Origin: Methanoregula sp. PtaU1.Bin051
GTDB lineage: Archaea; Halobacteriota; Methanomicrobia; Methanomicrobiales; Methanospirillaceae
Assembly (NCBI GenBank): GCA_002067895.1
Contig: MVRE01000003.1
Location: 124,001 to 188,000, forward strand
Length of the DNA: 64,000 nucleotides
Direction of reading: 5' to 3'
Shown piece by piece: positions 34,999 to 43,921 of the stretch. Positions within the stretch are counted from its first letter, which is position 1. The number at the start of each line of letters is the position of its first letter. The notes under the pieces were generated by a model. The model did no database searches. It saw only the letters and a program-made list of their open reading frames with translations, and had not been told where the DNA came from. A program made the translations under genes and the position numbers.

Positions 34999-35403
34999 TC
35001 AGGTTCCTGCGTGTTCGGTACACTGCAGCAACCGTCGCCCGCGCTCCGTAATGGAGTAGATGATCCAGTTGCCCTGGTATTCGCCTTCAATCAACCCGGC
35101 TTCCTTGAGGCTGGTAAGGTGGTAGGAAAGTTTTGAACCGGAAAGGCGCATGAACCGGTTGATGACGCAGACGCAGAGCGGCTGGTCCCGGATGATGTAC
35201 AGGATGGAGAGGCGGATCGGGTCGGAAAGCGCATGGTAGATCCTGCTACGTTCCTCCAGTTTCTTCCGGGGAGGGATCTGGCGGGCCAGACCTTCCATCC
35301 CGCCTCTCGCGTTGAGTTCCTCCCGGACCTTTTCCGGAAGTTCTGTTACGGGATCACCCTCCTGAACCGGTGTCCCGCAGCATGATACCGTTTTTTTCTT
35401 CAT
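34999..35403 (-). CDS. arsR: ArsR-family metalloid-sensing repressor
   Basis: A 134-residue winged-helix regulator. The metal-sensing CxC pair lies at C77 and C79 (in LCVCV), with a further CC at residues 8-9. The helix-turn-helix follows (SGSKLSYHLTSLK). It is first in the left-facing operon and lies beside a 16-bp palindrome that overlaps its own start region, consistent with autoregulation by arsenite or antimonite-type ligands. ATG at 35403; TATA at 35429-35436 predicts a leaderless transcript. Confidence 0.85.
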   Translation of the reverse strand: MKKKTVSCCGTPVQEGDPVTELPEKVREELNARGGMEGLARQIPPRKKLEERSRIYHALSDPIRLSILYIIRDQPLCVCVINRFMRLSGSKLSYHLTSLKEAGLIEGEYQGNWIIYSITERGRRLLQCTEHAGT

Positions 35404-35419
35404 TTCAAACTAATCTGAA
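35404..35419. promoter_or_regulatory. 16-bp palindrome, copy 1 (ArsR operator candidate)
   Basis: TTCAA-ACTAAT-CTGAA directly abuts the arsR start codon, between it and the TATA element. One arm has a single mismatch to the TTCAA-N6-TTGAA consensus of copies 2 and 3. Confidence 0.65.
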
Positions 35420-35428
35420 ATGCGCAGG

Positions 35429-35436
35429 TATAAATA
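35429..35436 (-). promoter_or_regulatory. TATA element of the arsR operon
   Basis: TATAAATA (as written on the plus strand) lies about 26-33 bases ahead of the arsR start codon on the minus strand, giving a leaderless transcript start at or near the ATG. Confidence 0.5.
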
Positions 35437-35456
35437 TCTTGCCCGGTAACCGGAGA

Positions 35457-35472
35457 TTCAATAAAACTTGAA
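35457..35472. promoter_or_regulatory. 16-bp palindrome, copy 2 (ArsR operator candidate)
   Basis: TTCAA-TAAAAC-TTGAA with perfect arms, in the divergent region between arsR and the first permease gene. It is placed to block transcription to the right. Confidence 0.65.
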
Positions 35473-35711
35473 ATTTGGAGGAACAAGATAAGAACATGCC
35501 TCTCTGTCCCGGATGTGTCGGGTGGGGTGAAGATCCGCCGGCTCCTGTTCATGACATACCCGGATGCCATCCGGTTTCATGATGGATTGTGAAAACACCA
35601 GCTGCATATGCATGCACAATCGGAGAGAGTCTATGAGAATTACGTATTGTTCATCCCGCCAGACGGACGGGGATTTATTCGATTTATTGTCATCTGATCA
35701 GGGAACAGGGG

Positions 35712-36659
35712 GTGCGGGAAGCCTTGACTGCGATCAATGACATCGTTACCACGGGCCAGTATTTCGCGATCATAACCGTTGAACTCATCGTCCTCTTCAT
35801 CGGTATCAGTTTCCTCGTCGGCCTGATTCGCGAATACGTGCCGGAGGACAAGATCAAGGCAACCCTGAAAGGCCGGAAGTACGGGGTGGGAAATGTCTTC
35901 GGTGCCGCGTTTGGGGCGCTCACCCCGTTCTGCTCCTGCTCCACCATCCCGATCCTGGTAGGGCTGCTGGATGTCGGGATACCGTTTGGGATCGCGTACT
36001 CGTTCCTGATCGCGTCCCCGCTCTTAAACCCCGTCATATTCTTTTTGCTGCTCGCGCTCTTTGGCATCGTCCCGACGCTCATCTATGCCGCGATCACGTT
36101 CTCGATCGCGGTCATCTCCGGCATCCTGCTCGAACGGGCAGGGTATACCCGGTATGTCAAGCCGGTCACGCTGGAGACAACTGCGGCATGCGAGTGCGAG
36201 TGCGCTGGATCTCCGGGATCATCGGTACACAAAGCCCGGTTCTCCCGCTCGCTCGGGTTTGCGTGGTCGCTCTTCCGGCAGGTCGTCCCTTACCTGATCC
36301 TCGGTGCGGCCATCGGGGCGTTCATCTACGGGTTTGTGCCGGAAGATCTCATCATCGCCCTTGCCGGCCCGCAGAACCAGCTTGCCATCCCGGTCGCCGC
36401 GATCATCGGCGTCCCGATGTACATCCGGGCGGAGACCATCATCCCCATCAGCGCCGTGCTCCTCGCAAAAGGGATGGGCATCGGAGCGGTGATGGCCCTG
36501 ATTATCGGCGGGGCCGGAGCAAGCATTCCCGAAGTAACGCTCCTTGCATCGATCTTCGAGAGGCGCCTTGTTGCCGCATTTGTTGCCACCGTCATCGGGG
36601 TTGCGATCCTGGCAGGGATTATCTTCCAGATGATGGCTACAGCAGGGATCGTCGGCTGA
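35712..36659 (+). CDS. Permease of the DUF318/ArsP-like family (PF03773)
   Basis: A 315-residue, about eight-helix permease. The signature FCSCSTIPI lies in a transmembrane segment, and a Cys-rich loop (ACECECAG) separates the two halves. Relatives export metalloids, methylarsenicals or other metals. Start is the GTG at 35712. First gene of the right-facing arm. Confidence 0.8.
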   Translation: MREALTAINDIVTTGQYFAIITVELIVLFIGISFLVGLIREYVPEDKIKATLKGRKYGVGNVFGAAFGALTPFCSCSTIPILVGLLDVGIPFGIAYSFLIASPLLNPVIFFLLLALFGIVPTLIYAAITFSIAVISGILLERAGYTRYVKPVTLETTAACECECAGSPGSSVHKARFSRSLGFAWSLFRQVVPYLILGAAIGAFIYGFVPEDLIIALAGPQNQLAIPVAAIIGVPMYIRAETIIPISAVLLAKGMGIGAVMALIIGGAGASIPEVTLLASIFERRLVAAFVATVIGVAILAGIIFQMMATAGIVG

Positions 36660-36738
36660 TCCCACGTTCTCCCTTTTGCTGTTGGTCCGACCGGATGTGA
36701 AATGAGCAAGGTTTAATATCCGGCACATCCACTAATGA

Positions 36739-36754
36739 TTCAACAAAAGTTGAA
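36739..36754. promoter_or_regulatory. 16-bp palindrome, copy 3 (ArsR operator candidate)
   Basis: TTCAA-CAAAAG-TTGAA with perfect arms (extending to TTCAAC/GTTGAA), 29 bases before the second permease gene. It suggests that this gene has its own ArsR-regulated promoter. Confidence 0.65.
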
Positions 36755-36782
36755 ATGCTTGGCATGATGAGATGACCTGACC

Positions 36783-37853
36783 ATGACAGACCCAATAACC
36801 GGCTCCCTCCTGCTCGGCTGGACAACGCTGCTTGACTACCTCTCACAGCATGTCGTCACCTGCCTTGTCCCGGCGTTCTTCATTGCCGGAGCGATAGCCG
36901 CATTCATCAGGAAAGATGCAATCCTGAAGTACTTCAGCCCGGAAACGAAAAAGACGACTTCTTATGGGATTGCATCGGTATCGGGGACTGTCCTTGCGGT
37001 GTGCAGCTGCACGATCCTCCCGATGTTTGCCGGCATCCTCAAGAAAGGGAGCGGGCTTGGGCCGGCGATCACGTTCCTGTACGCGGGACCGGCGATCAAT
37101 ATCCTTGCCATCGTCTACACCGCAAAGGTGCTCGGGTTTGATCTCGGTATCGCGAGAGCCGTATCGGCAATCGTGCTCTCCATCGTGATCGGCCTGATCA
37201 TGATGAAACTGTTTCCGCAGCAGGATGAGGAGACATCAAAAACATTCGGGGCAGCCCGGAAAGCGGCGTTAGCTTGTGCGGATACCCGGCCAAAATGGGT
37301 CATCCCTGCATTCTTCATCTTCCTGATCGCAATTCTCCTGATCGGCACGTCCGCGCTCGATGTCTTTATCCGGCTCCTGCTCGTGTACTTCCTCTCGATG
37401 GCGGTTGCTTTCCTGCTGATTTACTACTTCACCCGCGATGAGGTGACCGACTGGGGATACGAGATCTGGGACCTGACCAAGAAGATCTTCCCCATCCTGG
37501 TCATCGGCACGTTCGCGCTTGGCGTCCTCGCGTTCTTCCTCCCCCCTGAGACGTTCAGGCCGTTCTTCGGTGATAACTCGCTCCTTGCAAATTTCCTGGC
37601 TGCGATTGTCGGTGCGATCCTCTACATGCCGACGCTCCTTGAAGTGCCGGTCATCGGGACAACCCTCGGGTACCTTTCGGGATCCATGGCAAAAGGCCCG
37701 GCGCTTGCCCTGCTCCTGACCGGCCCCAGCATCAGTCTGCCCAGCCTGCTCGTCATCTACCGGATCATTGGCGGGAAGAAGACTCTGGCCTATGCCGGAC
37801 TGGTTGTTGCCTTTTCGACAATGGCAGGATTCCTTTTCGGGAATATTTTCTGA
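36783..37853 (+). CDS. Second PF03773-type permease
   Basis: A 356-residue permease of the same family as its upstream neighbour but divergent from it. It has about eight helices and the conserved AVCSCTILPM segment, plus a polar linker (about residues 145-175). Two paralogous permeases next to each other suggest different substrates or a two-step system. Confidence 0.8.
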   Translation: MTDPITGSLLLGWTTLLDYLSQHVVTCLVPAFFIAGAIAAFIRKDAILKYFSPETKKTTSYGIASVSGTVLAVCSCTILPMFAGILKKGSGLGPAITFLYAGPAINILAIVYTAKVLGFDLGIARAVSAIVLSIVIGLIMMKLFPQQDEETSKTFGAARKAALACADTRPKWVIPAFFIFLIAILLIGTSALDVFIRLLLVYFLSMAVAFLLIYYFTRDEVTDWGYEIWDLTKKIFPILVIGTFALGVLAFFLPPETFRPFFGDNSLLANFLAAIVGAILYMPTLLEVPVIGTTLGYLSGSMAKGPALALLLTGPSISLPSLLVIYRIIGGKKTLAYAGLVVAFSTMAGFLFGNIF

Positions 37854-37865
37854 GGTGAAGATCGA

Positions 37866-38129
37866 ATGAGCGATGACAAACCGTGCTGTGCCGCTGATGC
37901 GCTCCGGCGCATCCGGCAGATCCCGATCAACGGGGTCATGACCGGCATTACCATGCTGGATGAGAGCATCGCCACAATCCGGCAACAGAGCCTTACCAGC
38001 GATAGTGAGATCCGCACGGCACTGATGAAGAAGATCAAGGTCTACAATTACGTCCCGCCGGGCGTGGAAGAGGCGTATGCGATGGCAATTATGGACGAAT
38101 ACCGGAAACAGGGTGCGAAGAAGAACTGA
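37866..38129 (+). CDS. Small Cys-containing protein of the permease operon
   Basis: An 87-residue soluble protein. It begins MSDDKPCCAADALRRI, with a vicinal Cys pair near the N-terminus, followed by helical sequence. It starts 12 bases after the permease stop, so it is probably in the same operon. I do not recognise the family; metalloid binding is only suggested by the CC pair. Confidence 0.6.
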   Translation: MSDDKPCCAADALRRIRQIPINGVMTGITMLDESIATIRQQSLTSDSEIRTALMKKIKVYNYVPPGVEEAYAMAIMDEYRKQGAKKN

Positions 38130-38254
38130 TGAATACCTCACTGGCAGGCCGGTCCCCGCCAACGCAATCCTTCAGGAGAACGTTACCGGGATCAGGACCT
38201 GTCACAGGGCGAGATTAAGGACAGTATCGGAACAAAAAACGGGAATTGGTTACC

Positions 38255-39034
38255 ATGAACGGAACATCACTCGGATTTATCGGCGGAGGACGGGGCGCCC
38301 TCATCCTCCTCTCGGCACTGGAGAAGAACGGATCGCTTCCATCGGATATTGTGGTCAGCGATATGAACGAGGCCCCTCTCGCGACCCTGAAGCAGCGTTT
38401 CCCATCTATCCATACAATCGCTGGCGGGAACGCACAAGCCGCCGGGCAGGACATGGTCTTTGTCGCCCTGCACCCCCCGGCAGCAGGAGAGGTTCTTAAG
38501 GGGATTGCCGGCGCGGTTCGCAGCGATGCGGTGGTCGTCTCGCTCATGCCAAAGATAACCGCAGCCCAGATATCCGGGATGCTCGGGGGATTTTCCCGCA
38601 TCGTGCGGATGATCCCCAATGCACCGGCCATCAGCGGCAACGGGTTCAACCCTGTCGTGTACCCGTCCGTACTTTCCGCTGAAGAAAAAGGCGCTCTCGG
38701 GCGGTTCTTTGCCGCATTCGGTGCATGCCCGGAAGTTGCGGAAGAACGGCTGGAGGCATATGCCGTCATCACCGCGATGGGGCCTACCTACCTGTGGTTC
38801 CAGCTTTACGAGCTCGAGACGCTGGCACGGTCGTTTGGCATGACGGAACAGGAAGCAGCGGATGCAGTCCGGTCGATGGTGCGGGGAGCCCTGGAGACGA
38901 TGACCCGGACAGGTCTCCCCCCGGAAAAGGTGATGGACCTTGTCCCGGTCAAGCCGTTGGGCGAGAACGAAACGGCAATCCTTGCAGCATACCGGGAGAA
39001 ACTGCCGGCACTGTATGCAAAACTGAAGAATTAA
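38255..39034 (+). CDS. ProC-like NAD(P)-binding oxidoreductase
   Basis: A 259-residue protein similar to pyrroline-5-carboxylate reductase. The N-terminal GFIGGGRGA Rossmann loop and the RMIPNAPA segment in the central region are clear. In the ars/hgc context it need not be a proline-biosynthesis enzyme. The ATG at 38255 is chosen over a TTG three codons earlier. Confidence 0.75.
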   Translation: MNGTSLGFIGGGRGALILLSALEKNGSLPSDIVVSDMNEAPLATLKQRFPSIHTIAGGNAQAAGQDMVFVALHPPAAGEVLKGIAGAVRSDAVVVSLMPKITAAQISGMLGGFSRIVRMIPNAPAISGNGFNPVVYPSVLSAEEKGALGRFFAAFGACPEVAEERLEAYAVITAMGPTYLWFQLYELETLARSFGMTEQEAADAVRSMVRGALETMTRTGLPPEKVMDLVPVKPLGENETAILAAYREKLPALYAKLKN

Positions 39035-39079
39035 GACGGCAATCCTTTAGCAACGAGTGGAACGAATTACTGGTGAACC

Positions 39080-39316
39080 ATGACAAAGATTGAAGTACTC
39101 GGGACCGGTTGTGCAAAATGCAAACGGCTGTTTGATAACGTGCAGGCAGCGGTCAAGGAACTCGGCATGACGGCTGAAGTCGTGAAAGTCGAAGATCTGG
39201 ATGCGATTGTCGAGGCAGGCGTCATGCTGACGCCGGCACTCTTCATCAATGGCGAACTGCGGGCCGAGGGCCGGGTCCCCTGCGTGGAAGAGATCATGAC
39301 GATGTTAAAGGAGTGA
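39080..39316 (+). CDS. Mini-thioredoxin (thioredoxin_3 family)
   Basis: A 78-residue protein with a CAKC active site (CxxC) at residues 11-14 and a cis-Pro TPAL segment. The small thioredoxin family is often linked to metalloid permeases, where it may deliver electrons or bind metal. It is next to the DGC gene, overlapping a GTG but followed by a better ATG start. Confidence 0.85.
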   Translation: MTKIEVLGTGCAKCKRLFDNVQAAVKELGMTAEVVKVEDLDAIVEAGVMLTPALFINGELRAEGRVPCVEEIMTMLKE

Positions 39317-39321
39317 AAAAT

Positions 39322-39786
39322 ATGGCAGAAACATTAACCTGTTCATGCGGACAGAACGAACCGAAACGGATCATCTTTCCCTGCGCCGGACAGGCAAACA
39401 CCGGGCAGCTGACCAACCTTGCAGCTATCCAGCTGACCGAGGAAGGGTATGGCAGCATCGCCTGCGCTTCGCTGCTCGCAATTGGCTCGGAAGGGCTGGT
39501 CAGGAGTGCAAAGAGTGTCGATGAAGTTCTCGTACTCGACGGCTGCCCGATGCTCTGCGCGAAGAAGATTGCGGAAGCACAGGGTGTTCCGGTCGGCCAG
39601 CACCTTGTGATGACGGAACTCGGGATTGTCAAAGGGCCCTCAAAAAACTACACGAATGACGATGTCGAAAAGATCGTATCGGCATGCTGGAAAGGCGAGG
39701 GCCGGACGAAAACAGCTGCACCTCCGGATAAGAAATCCGGCGGGAACAACAGCGGGTGCGGCTGCGGGTGCGGCGGGACCTGCTGA
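39322..39786 (+). CDS. DGC-domain (zinc-binding) protein 1
   Basis: A 154-residue protein of the DGC-domain family (PF08859), with the LDGCPMLCAKK motif, an early CAGQANTG segment and a Cys-rich C-terminus (CGCGCGGTC). I chose ATG 39322 because the GGAG at 39310-39313 is correctly spaced; the GTG at 39313 would overlap the preceding stop. First of three DGC paralogues in the island. Confidence 0.8.
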   Translation: MAETLTCSCGQNEPKRIIFPCAGQANTGQLTNLAAIQLTEEGYGSIACASLLAIGSEGLVRSAKSVDEVLVLDGCPMLCAKKIAEAQGVPVGQHLVMTELGIVKGPSKNYTNDDVEKIVSACWKGEGRTKTAAPPDKKSGGNNSGCGCGCGGTC

Positions 39787-39817
39787 TTTCCGATAGTGTA
39801 TAACGAGGCGACCTGAA

Positions 39818-40117
39818 ACGGCTGATGAAGACGAGATCCGGGCGTGGGCCGAGGATTACGCGCGGAAGAACGGCTGGATCCTGAATCCGGACAAAACGGT
39901 GCTGGATACCGTCATCCGGGGCCTCGCCCGCAACAGGAAGAAGTTCGGAGAGCGATATTGCCCGTGCCGGCTCCGGTCCGGCGATAAGGAAAAAGATCGG
40001 GTAATCATCTGCCCGTGCATCTATCATAAAGATGAGATTGCACAGGACGGTCACTGCCATTGCCACCTTTATTATCGGAAAGACACTGCGTTTGACGTAA
40101 GCGGGAAAGAAGAATGA
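39818..40117 (+). CDS. Ferredoxin-thioredoxin reductase catalytic-subunit-like protein with an ACG first codon
   Basis: A 99-residue protein with the FTR catalytic motifs CPC (48-50), CPC (65-67) and CHC (80-82), which hold a 4Fe-4S cluster and a disulfide that reduces thioredoxin. No ATG, GTG or TTG precedes the motif-bearing part in frame except GTG 39899, which would delete 27 conserved residues. Family proteins start with M followed by ADEDE-like sequence; here that codon is ACG at 39818, with GAGG eight or nine bases upstream. It follows the mini-thioredoxin and DGC genes, so it may reduce them. Confidence 0.75.
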   Translation, partial: TADEDEIRAWAEDYARKNGWILNPDKTVLDTVIRGLARNRKKFGERYCPCRLRSGDKEKDRVIICPCIYHKDEIAQDGHCHCHLYYRKDTAFDVSGKEE

Positions 40118-40457
40118 CCTTTGCACTTGTTACCTGTTCCGGCATCTCGAACACCGGCAAACTCACCACCCAGGCCGCGCTCACCCTGCTCCAGCGCAAA
40201 CCCGGGCAGTACGTCTGGATGCATGCCAGACAGTCCGCTGCGACACTGGAAACTGAAGTTATGGATGCTGACCGGGTGATCGTCCTTGACGGGTGTTCTG
40301 ACTGCTGTGCGAACAAGAAACTTGCTGCCTCTGGTATCGAACCTCACTGCCACATCATCGCAACGGGTCTTGGCATTAAGAAGAACGGGATGGCCGATTC
40401 CAGCACCACGAGATCGAGACAATGGTCCGTGCGGTCCTAAAAGAGGCTCCCCCATGA
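40114..40457 (+). CDS. DGC-domain protein 2, frameshifted near its end
   Basis: A DGC-domain protein beginning at 40114 with the LDGCSDCCANKK motif. The uninterrupted frame ends at 40440 as 108 residues, but the last part (from the IKKNGMAD segment) is alien to the family. Adding one T in the run at 40398-40399 restores an end reading DFQHHEIETMVRAVLKEAPP and a stop (40455-40457) that overlaps the next start codon. Either a lost base or a sequence error. It overlaps the FTR gene by four bases. Confidence 0.7.
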
Positions 40458-41857
40458 AAATTCCACGATACAAGCGGCTTGAGATCGAATGGAAACATTT
40501 TGCGGTCGGTGACGCGACCTGCGAGCGGTGCGGGAAGACCGGTGAAGCATTGAAAGGCGCTATAGATGAGCTCCGGCGCGAGTTTGCCCCCGCAGGAGTG
40601 AAGATCAACCTGACCGAGACGCTCCTTGACAAGACACGGATCGCGGAATCGAACGAGATCCGCATGAACGGCGTGCTCATTGAAGACCTTCTATCGGCTT
40701 CAGTTGCCACAACCGATTGTCCTTCCTGTGGTACGCTCGCCGGTGAGAGTACCTGCTGCCGGGCGATAGAGATTGGCAACGATCAGTACGAGGATATCCC
40801 GGTATGGGCGATCAGGAAAGCCGCATACCGGGCGCTCGGTGTTGCTCCTCCTGAACTGGAATCCGGGACCGGTATCCGCGAAACGATCCGCATAACGGAT
40901 AGCACGATCACCCCCGCCAACCGTCTCGACCACTTCCTCGCCCGCTGGGGCTGGGACCGTGACGGGCACCGGGTGGCGCCGGGCCTGTACCGGCTCGGGA
41001 ACCCGTCCCCGGAGTCGCCGGTCTTTGCCTCGGCCAACTACACGCTCTCCTTCGACGCGCTCCGGTCCGCGCTGAAAGGGACCGACGCGTGGATCATCGT
41101 GCTGGACACAAAAGGAATCAACGTCTGGTGCGCCGCAGGGAAAGGAATCTTCGGGACGGAGGAACTTATCCGGAGCATCCTGTCTGTCGGCCTCGATTCG
41201 GTCGTTTCCCACCGGAAGATCATCGTACCCCAGCTCGGGGCGCCGGGGATCTCGTGGCCGGAAGTAATGCGCAGATCGGGATTTAACGTCGAATACGGGC
41301 CGGTCCACGTTCGCGATCTGCCGGAGTACCTCAAAACCGGAAAAGCCACAGTAGAGATGCGGCGGGTGCAGTTCACCCTGAAAGACCGGCTCGTACTGGT
41401 TCCGATAGAACTGGTCCATGCAGCACTCCCGATGGTTGCGGTGGCTGCAATTCTCTGGTTCCTTGCCGGCCCTGTTGCTGCACTCGCGGCTGTATCTGTA
41501 GTCCTTGCCGGTACTGTGCTCTTTCCAGGACTGCTTCCCCTGATTCCGACAGCGGATCTCTCCACAAAAGGCTTCATCCTCGGGGGAGTCGTTGCCCTTC
41601 CATTTGCAGTCTCATTTGGTAACAACCCCGCACTCCCACTCTGGGCAAACGCTCTGGCTGCTGGATCGGCACTGCTCCTCATTCCCGCTGTGACGGCATA
41701 CCTTGCGCTCAACTTTACCGGAAGCACACCGTACACATCCCGGACCGGCGTGAGAAAAGAGATCTTCCGGTATGTCCCGGCCATGGCAGTAATGGCAGCA
41801 CTGGGGATTGTAGCCGGAATCGTTCTTGGGGTGAGCAGGCTTTTGGGGGTTATCTGA
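40454..41857 (+). CDS. hgcA: HgcA mercury-methylation corrinoid protein fused to an N-terminal DUF2703 domain
   Basis: A 467-residue protein. Residues 1-~130 match DUF2703 (CERCGKTGEALK and CPSCGTLAGESTCC are its Cys motifs). Residues ~150-320 are the corrinoid-binding domain, with the hallmark N223-VWCAAGK; C226 is the cap-helix cysteine that ligates cobalt in HgcA. Five transmembrane helices follow (~325-467), with the LNFTGSTPYTSRTG loop typical of HgcA. HgcA transfers a methyl group to Hg(II) together with HgcB, which follows directly with a one-base overlap. The usual HgcA is about 340 residues; the excess is the fused N-terminal domain. Confidence 0.92.
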   Translation: MKIPRYKRLEIEWKHFAVGDATCERCGKTGEALKGAIDELRREFAPAGVKINLTETLLDKTRIAESNEIRMNGVLIEDLLSASVATTDCPSCGTLAGESTCCRAIEIGNDQYEDIPVWAIRKAAYRALGVAPPELESGTGIRETIRITDSTITPANRLDHFLARWGWDRDGHRVAPGLYRLGNPSPESPVFASANYTLSFDALRSALKGTDAWIIVLDTKGINVWCAAGKGIFGTEELIRSILSVGLDSVVSHRKIIVPQLGAPGISWPEVMRRSGFNVEYGPVHVRDLPEYLKTGKATVEMRRVQFTLKDRLVLVPIELVHAALPMVAVAAILWFLAGPVAALAAVSVVLAGTVLFPGLLPLIPTADLSTKGFILGGVVALPFAVSFGNNPALPLWANALAAGSALLLIPAVTAYLALNFTGSTPYTSRTGVRKEIFRYVPAMAVMAALGIVAGIVLGVSRLLGVI

Positions 41858-42186
41858 TGTTCAATTCGTATAGGGAAAACACGCTCCGGTATTATCCCGA
41901 CCGGTGCATCAACTGCAAACGCTGCACGCAGGTCTGCCCCCACGGGGTCTTTGCTGAGGGGGGAGATTACGCGGAACTTGTCCGGCCTGAGGCCTGCATG
42001 GAGTGCGGCGCCTGTGCGCTGAACTGTCCCGTGCAGGCAATCGAAGTCCAGAGCGGTGTCGGATGCGCCTGGGCGATGATTTCCGCCGCACTGCGCGGAA
42101 AGGACATGGACGCGGAATGCAGCTGCGGCGGCGGGGACGGTTCGTGCTGCCAAACGCCAGGTGCCGGCACCCCCCGTCAAGAGTGA
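41857..42186 (+). CDS. hgcB: HgcB mercury-methylation ferredoxin
   Basis: A 109-residue ferredoxin-like protein with two 4Fe-4S motifs (CINCKRCTQVCP from C17 and CMECGACALNCP from C47), a conserved Cys at 70, and a C-terminal CC pair (C97, C98) that fits the mercury-binding end known from HgcB. It is proposed to reduce the corrinoid of HgcA. It shares one base with the hgcA stop. Confidence 0.95.
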   Translation: MFNSYRENTLRYYPDRCINCKRCTQVCPHGVFAEGGDYAELVRPEACMECGACALNCPVQAIEVQSGVGCAWAMISAALRGKDMDAECSCGGGDGSCCQTPGAGTPRQE

Positions 42187-42234
42187 TACGGAGGGAACAC
42201 ATGAATCGAATGAGAATACAATCTGAAAACGGGA

Positions 42235-42666
42235 ATGCGTATGACTGATGAATCTCAACCGGCACCCAATCGCCTCATTTTCTGCTGTTCAGGTGCGTCA
42301 AATGTTGGTGTCCTTTCCTTTCAGGCAGCGATCCGGTTAGCCCGTGAAGGGTTTGGCAATTTCTCATGTATCGCCGGCATTGGCAGCAGGAACATGCCGA
42401 TGATCCGTGCAACAAAAATGGCCGGGGAGCGTGTGGTCATTGACGGATGCCCGATCGGCTGTGGACGTAAGATCATGGATGCGAACCTGATCCCCATCGA
42501 CCGGTATGTTATTGTCACGGAACTGGGGATCGACAAGACCCATGATTTTGATGTCGACGATAGCGACATTGGGATCGTACTGGAAGCAGTGAAAAGGCCT
42601 CAGGAAGGCACACTTCCTGTCAAGAGGCCCAGGGAAAAACCTGTGAAAGGGAACGAGAGATCATGA
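42235..42666 (+). CDS. DGC-domain protein 3
   Basis: A 143-residue DGC-domain protein with the [11 protein letters not shown] motif and a lysine-rich tail. The alternative ATG at 42241 would shorten it by two residues. A strong GGAGGG lies at about 42190 and precedes a 15-codon open frame (42201-42248) that overlaps this start, possibly for translational coupling. Third DGC paralogue, sited between hgcAB and acr3. Confidence 0.8.
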
Positions 42667-42736
42667 TGCGTATTGTTCGGATGAAAACAAAATTTTCTGT
42701 CTTAAAAGGCAGGAACTGATCTGGACTGATAGTACT

Positions 42737-43921
42737 ATGCCAGGTGAAACCTGCGTGACAAAAGAGCCCAAAGGGCTGGGATTCTTCGAGAAGTACCTGA
42801 CCGTCTGGGTACTCCTCTGCATCGGCCTTGGCATCCTGCTGGGGCGGTTTGCCCCGAAGTCGGCGACCTATCTTGATGGCCTCTCGATCTACATCGGCGA
42901 AGCGCCGGTGGTGTCAATCCCGATTGCCATCTGCCTGTTCTTCATGATGTATCCCATCATGGTCAAGATCGATTTTGCCGAGGTATTAAAAGCGGGAAAG
43001 AACCTCAAGCCTGTCAGCCTGACCCTGCTGGTCAACTGGGCGATCAAGCCGTTCACCATGTACGCCATATCGCTCTTTTTCCTCGGGACGCTCTTTTTAG
43101 CCTTCATCGGGCCGGATGCAGTCGACCTCGTGAAGATGCCGTTCGGGCTCGATCTCCCCGTCGGCGCGACGTACGGGGTCGGGACAGTCGTGATGGAAGG
43201 CGGGGTGAAGATGCTGGAAGTCCCGCTCTGGCGCAGCTACCTTGCCGGCTGCATCCTGCTCGGGATTGCGCCCTGCACCGCCATGGTGCTGGTCTGGGGG
43301 TATCTCGCGAAGGGCAATGACGGGCATACGCTCGTCATGGTGGCGATCAACTCACTCACCATGCTCTTCCTCTACGGCCCGCTGGGCGGTTTCCTGCTGG
43401 GAGTTGGCAGGCTCCCCGTACCGTGGGAGGCGCTCGCCCTCTCCATTGGGATCTATGTCGCACTGCCGCTGGCGGCAGGATACCTGTCGAGAATGGTGAT
43501 CATAAGGATAAAAGGTGAGGAATGGTTCAACACACGGTTCGTCCACTACTTAACCCCGGTCACTATTACGGCGCTCCTGGTAACCCTCGTGCTCCTCTTC
43601 AGCTTCAAGGGAGAAGTGATCCTGACACAGCCGCTCACCATCCTCTGGATAGCAATCCCGCTCTTTATCCAGACGATTCTTATCTTCACCATCGGGTATA
43701 TCGCCGCAAGAAAGATCAGCCTTACCTACGAAGATGCAGCCCCGTCGGCGATGATCGGGGCATCGAACCATTTCGAAGTGGCTATTGCAACTGCAACAAT
43801 CCTGTTCGGGCTCTCGTCGGGGGCGGCCCTTGCGACAGTGGTCGGCGTGCTGATCGAAGTGCCCACGATGCTCCTGCTGGTGAAGATCTGCCTGAGGACA
43901 AGAGGCTGGTTCACAACATGA
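42737..43921 (+). CDS. acr3: ACR3-family arsenite exporter
   Basis: A 394-residue, ten-helix permease of the ACR3 (ArsB-2) family, which extrudes arsenite driven by the proton gradient. A conserved Cys lies in the [10 protein letters not shown] helix, with [11 protein letters not shown] later on. Last gene of the island. A 20-codon frame (43918-43980) overlaps its stop but has no support as a gene. Confidence 0.92.

Follow-up and report, generated by a model that had tools for sequence, protein, structure and literature searches.

The window, by which we mean the whole stretch of 64,000 nucleotides that was analysed, comes from a methane-producing archaeon and holds a gene (40454..41857, + strand) in which a sequence-only reading had recognized HgcA, the corrinoid protein of mercury methylation, behind an N-terminal DUF2703 domain. 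Here, we ask whether this fusion is real, how it arose and what a DUF2703 domain could do when attached to HgcA.

The fusion gene and its product

The open reading frame and the Pfam and NCBIfam searches agree that 40454..41857 is a single uninterrupted frame, with zero stops across 467 residues, which encodes a DUF2703 domain followed by a complete HgcA core. The DUF2703 domain (residues 9-124; 40478..40825, + strand) aligns with the whole of the PF10865 profile (1-120 of 120) at 5.3e-35, far over the cut-off. A linker (residues 129-145; 40838..40888, + strand) leads to the HgcA core, formed by the corrinoid domain and the five-helix membrane domain (residues 147-458; 40892..41827, + strand), which scores 425.9 bits (1e-127) against the curated HgcA model NF040863, whose NCBIfam cut-off is 275 bits. 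The gene overlaps by one base with hgcB (41857..42186, + strand), coding for a dicluster ferredoxin with C-terminal Cys pairs (NF040864, 120.2 bits; cut-off 99 bits).

The only Cys in the HgcA part is Cys226 (codon 41129..41131, + strand), the cobalt-ligating residue of the NVWCAAGK motif, at the position that had been read from the letters; the motif fits the HgcA consensus N(V/I)WCA(A/G)GK. The remaining six Cys all lie in DUF2703 and are conserved: C23/C26 (CERC), C89/C92 (CPSC) and C101/C102. The first two pairs had been noticed before, but the count of four that went with them was too low. All six are kept relative to the standalone DUF2703 genes of Methanoregulaceae and Methanocorpusculaceae, to which the domain is 70-85% identical. 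In the HgcA core, three of 110 conserved columns deviate, which is within the range of relatives; the sequence after NVWCAAGK is GIFGT, as against GTFGT in relatives, and T232I, next to the catalytic motif, occurs in no other member of the compared set. For each half, comparison with standalone genes gives a dN/dS of about 0.1-0.2, a rough figure, with synonymous sites near saturation; as dS is near or above 1, the estimate reflects mostly the time before the fusion. Judged by dN/dS, by the retention of Cys residues and by the conservation of the HgcA core, both halves look functional.

A start codon further downstream, near residue 130, would have separated HgcA from the added domain. However, the joint, from where DUF2703 ends to the corrinoid core, holds no ATG, GTG or TTG codon, and inspection of the other frames there revealed no HgcA start. 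Intact HgcA is thus obtainable solely as the fusion. With the fusion as query, the whole genome (2.3 Mb in 23 contigs, estimated to be 96% complete) yielded only this locus and one CdhD-like paralogue. Neither a further DUF2703 nor a further HgcA was found; with no start codon at the joint, the two domains are therefore not separately makeable in this genome.

In the AlphaFold model (mean pLDDT 89), the fusion has two folded parts and a flexible linker, with low confidence at residues 136-142 and five long C-terminal helices at residues 309-463; its HgcA part matches the HgcAB model and CFeSP. When modelled alone, DUF2703 is predicted with confidence (94), and its best matches among solved structures, which include SelW-like and thioredoxin proteins, are weak. 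In a Foldseek search with DUF2703 nothing fell below 1e-3, the thioredoxin-like matches being weak, with TM-scores of about 0.3-0.4, and comparison of the DUF2703 profile with PDB sequences gave chance matches only. In the model, the CxxC of DUF2703 sits where the first helix begins, as in thioredoxins; the assignment to the thioredoxin fold follows mainly from this position and from a published profile assignment (PMC3091736).

The surrounding gene cassette

The fusion gene and hgcB lie in a cassette headed by a divergent ArsR-family regulator (34999..35403, - strand; PF01022, 1.3e-11). On the + strand, it continues with two ArsP-type permeases (35712..36659 and 36783..37853; PF03773, 1.5e-54 and 3e-70), a small conserved cassette protein with no Pfam match (37866..38129), a ProC-like oxidoreductase that only some of the cassettes include (38246..39034), a small thioredoxin of the MTH895/ArsE family (39080..39316; TIGR00412, 9.5e-29) and two DGC-domain proteins (39313..39786 and 40114..40440; PF08859, 6e-33 and 7.3e-23). 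Downstream of hgcB, also on the + strand, are a third DGC-domain protein (42235..42666; PF08859, 5.5e-28) and the arsenite efflux transporter Acr3 (42737..43921; TIGR00832, 370.5 bits; cut-off 282.8). From its ArsR, ArsP-type, thioredoxin, DGC and Acr3 components, the cassette looks arsenic-related; no arsenite methyltransferase was found in the genome above the curated cut-off. A link between hgcAB and arsenic is known from gene order (PMC7438021), regulation of hgcAB by an ArsR-like protein is cited in a second study (PMC10349881), and in Rhodococcus DUF2703 is arsenate-induced along with the ars genes (PMC6514093).

The second DGC gene, as sequenced, stops 13 bp before the ATG of the fusion gene. 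In the next frame, the conserved DGC C-terminus (...HHEIETMVRAVLKEAPP) continues to a TGA at 40455-40457; read in this way, the DGC gene overlaps the fusion gene by four bases (ATGA), an arrangement found in a relative. The sequence-only reading described a good overlap with the gene before; this holds only if the DGC gene is frameshifted, and not for the sequence as it stands. The apparent one-base frameshift, near 40390 and 60 bp upstream of the fusion gene, could be an error of one base in the assembly, or the gene (40114-40457) could be a true pseudogene; local sequence errors are possible in this single metagenome-type assembly.

In relatives, the cassette with a standalone DUF2703 is common, with no hgcAB on the stretch examined. 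Within the family, at least three cassette genes are found within about 10 kb of HgcA at 10 of the 51 loci examined with flanks, and in a genome of the same genus (G011) the genes run thioredoxin - DGC - DGC - ArsP - hgcA - hgcB - C_GCAxxG - Acr3. Cassette-linked hgcA genes are weakly clustered on the tree (8 changes, with 39 of 500 shuffles as low), which makes a repeated association of hgcA with the cassette likelier than a single origin. The placement of hgcAB in or beside an ArsR-ArsP-thioredoxin-DGC-Acr3 cassette recurs in Methanoregulaceae (34999-43921 in the window, and loci L036, L117, L120, L124 and L126). A contig labelled Clostridia bacterium (L042, SAAS01000023.1) carries a cassette whose identities and spacing match those of Methanocorpusculum parvum (L043), and is probably mis-binned.

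HgcA N-termini in relatives and the origin of the fusion

HgcA had been assumed normally to open with its corrinoid domain. Comparison with relatives shows otherwise for this order, the Methanomicrobiales, in which about 25-40 variable N-terminal residues come first, nearly always with two Cys clusters (such as CCSC...CSC); most of the Methanomicrobiales HgcA examined have at least three Cys in this tail. The tail is missing from the fusion, and none could be read at the joint in any frame; the six-Cys DUF2703 domain stands where it would be. Across the wider set of HgcA loci (L003-L031, L048-L076 and L137-L156), the Cys-rich tail, typically CCxC...CxC, is nearly universal in Methanomicrobiales. 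The second large HgcA group sampled in the phylum (family f8) has mostly one Cys cluster, and several other archaeal families have HgcA without an N-terminal Cys cluster. We found no published account of the tail; in its accessible passages, the HgcAB structural paper discusses the Cys residues of HgcB and the cap-helix Cys, and no others (PMC7305189).

The search covered the family (all 108 genomes) and the class (all 232) in full, together with about 390 genomes drawn from the phylum. Of the roughly 110 archaeal HgcA genes that it yielded, this is the only one joined to DUF2703; the combination of PF10865 and HgcA in one protein, a search for which the sequence-only reading had proposed across genomes, was found in a single genome and is not recurrent. 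The other intact archaeal HgcA frames have about 335-425 residues, except for one of 499 residues (G221), which was rejected as a fusion because its upstream extension is without DUF2703. A 683-residue frame (G172, locus L036) was rejected as a second fusion, the ORF listing resolving it into three genes with stops; its HgcA frame has 370 residues, and the order is DUF2703 - C_GCAxxG_C_C - hgcA - hgcB, as separate genes. This gene order is likely the state before the fusion. Since both genes are separate in relatives, and once nearly adjacent within the cassette, the gene probably arose by recent fusion of neighbours. On the tree, the fused HgcA groups with its genus (G011 and G160), with weak support for the exact branching, a placement that fits vertical descent; no HgcA was found on plasmids. 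A tandem DUF2703-DUF2703 fusion protein of 272 residues occurs in the same cassette type in two other places (L045:6001-6819 and G170:C50).

Possible roles of the joined domain

We tentatively favour a real fusion within an ArsR-headed, arsenic-type cassette, in which DUF2703 would act as a tethered thiol domain serving HgcAB. The C-terminus of DUF2703 would have been joined just ahead of the corrinoid core, with removal of the HgcA start and of the Cys-rich tail, so as to leave the thiol domain adjoining the corrinoid. Its paired Cys may accept a soft metal or metalloid, Hg(II) and possibly As(III), from the small thioredoxin and the DGC proteins of the cassette, and may pass the metal to the C-terminal Cys of HgcB, whose Cys pairs are proposed as a Hg shuttle in the structural study (PMC7305189), or to the corrinoid itself. 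Alternatively, DUF2703 may hold the thiols of HgcB and HgcA reduced. The folded domain would then take over the part that the Cys-rich tail may play in relatives, and the corrinoid chemistry would be that of ordinary HgcAB, with Cys226 on cobalt and HgcB as the electron donor. The sequence-only reading had suggested Hg or As binding, or electron donation, for the N-terminal part; this is plausible, and is favoured by the intact Cys residues, by the assignment of DUF2703 to the thioredoxin fold and its link to arsenic operons in the literature, and by the surrounding cassette of arsenic type.

The main rival to this thiol-relay or redox-partner reading, which we regard as rather unlikely, is an accidental and uncoupled fusion of neighbours: the intervening DNA was lost, and each domain keeps its old job on one chain, arsenic or thiol redox for DUF2703 and methylation for HgcA. 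The presence of both genes in one cassette in relatives, the single case in about 110 archaeal HgcA and a linker that is flexible in the model agree with it, whereas the swap of a Cys-rich tail for a Cys-rich domain looks function-preserving and the genome retains no separate copy of either gene. That DUF2703 serves the corrinoid or HgcB as a donor of electrons or disulfides, and not as a metal carrier, appears improbable. A dithiol is unlikely to attain the potential required for Co(I). The thioredoxin-like position of the CxxC at the first helix of the model and the thioredoxin-like assignment (PMC3091736) are in line with such a donor, but HgcB, already established as the donor of electrons to cobalt (PMC11588087), is intact next door. 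It is hardly more probable that HgcAB belongs to an arsenic or organometal operon in which As(III) or Hg(II) is brought to the methyl-corrinoid by DUF2703 and the methylated product leaves through the ArsP-type permeases; in that case, the methylation of mercury would be one aspect of a metalloid pathway. Finally, an assembly artefact, with a DUF2703 gene and an hgcA gene wrongly joined in a metagenome-type assembly, is about as improbable: the fusion is a singleton and the frameshift just upstream suggests sequence errors, but the joint keeps the reading frame and leaves both domains whole, the genes to either side of it belong to the cassette, which argues against a chimera, the presence of hgcAB in the same cassette in G011 and other genomes argues against an assembly error, and an indel masking separate genes was rejected, as the approximately 36 nt between the conserved parts of DUF2703 and HgcA cannot conceal the HgcA tail.

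We found no published description of an HgcA-DUF2703 fusion, nor did a search that combined HgcA with fusion, arsenic and ACR3 return anything on one; for HgcA and thioredoxin fusions, the titles, abstracts and passages retrieved did not concern such a protein. The fused protein can be compared with several known systems. With HgcA (NF040863; PF03599 corrinoid and five-helix membrane domain) and its partner HgcB it shares the corrinoid and membrane domains, the Cys of NVWCAAGK and an hgcB directly 3', but a 130-residue DUF2703 domain replaces the N-terminal tail of ordinary HgcA. The standalone DUF2703 (PF10865) of Methanoregulaceae arsenic-type cassettes has the same six Cys and the same position after the second DGC gene, yet there the genes are separate, and DUF2703 is likewise a separate gene in the ars cluster of Rhodococcus aetherivorans BCP1. 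The fused HgcAB-like proteins (NF043039; Pyrococcus, Methanococcoides) also involve an HgcA-like corrinoid protein; in these, however, the HgcA-like part is fused to ferredoxin, whereas here HgcB has its own gene and the extra domain precedes HgcA, and the fusion scores 202.8 bits against NF043039, below the cut-off of 285. A Cys-rich thiol domain in place of a Cys-rich tail suggests that N-terminal thiols share in metal delivery, and the fusion thus bears on how Hg(II) reaches HgcAB and on what HgcAB does. In ArsR-linked hgcAB (Pseudodesulfovibrio ND132 and others), as described in two studies (PMC7438021; PMC10349881), hgcAB lies beside ars-type genes, as here, but as side-by-side genes and not as one fused protein; the fusion takes the link between hgcAB and arsenic from gene order to a single protein, and hints that mercury methylation and the handling of arsenic are connected.
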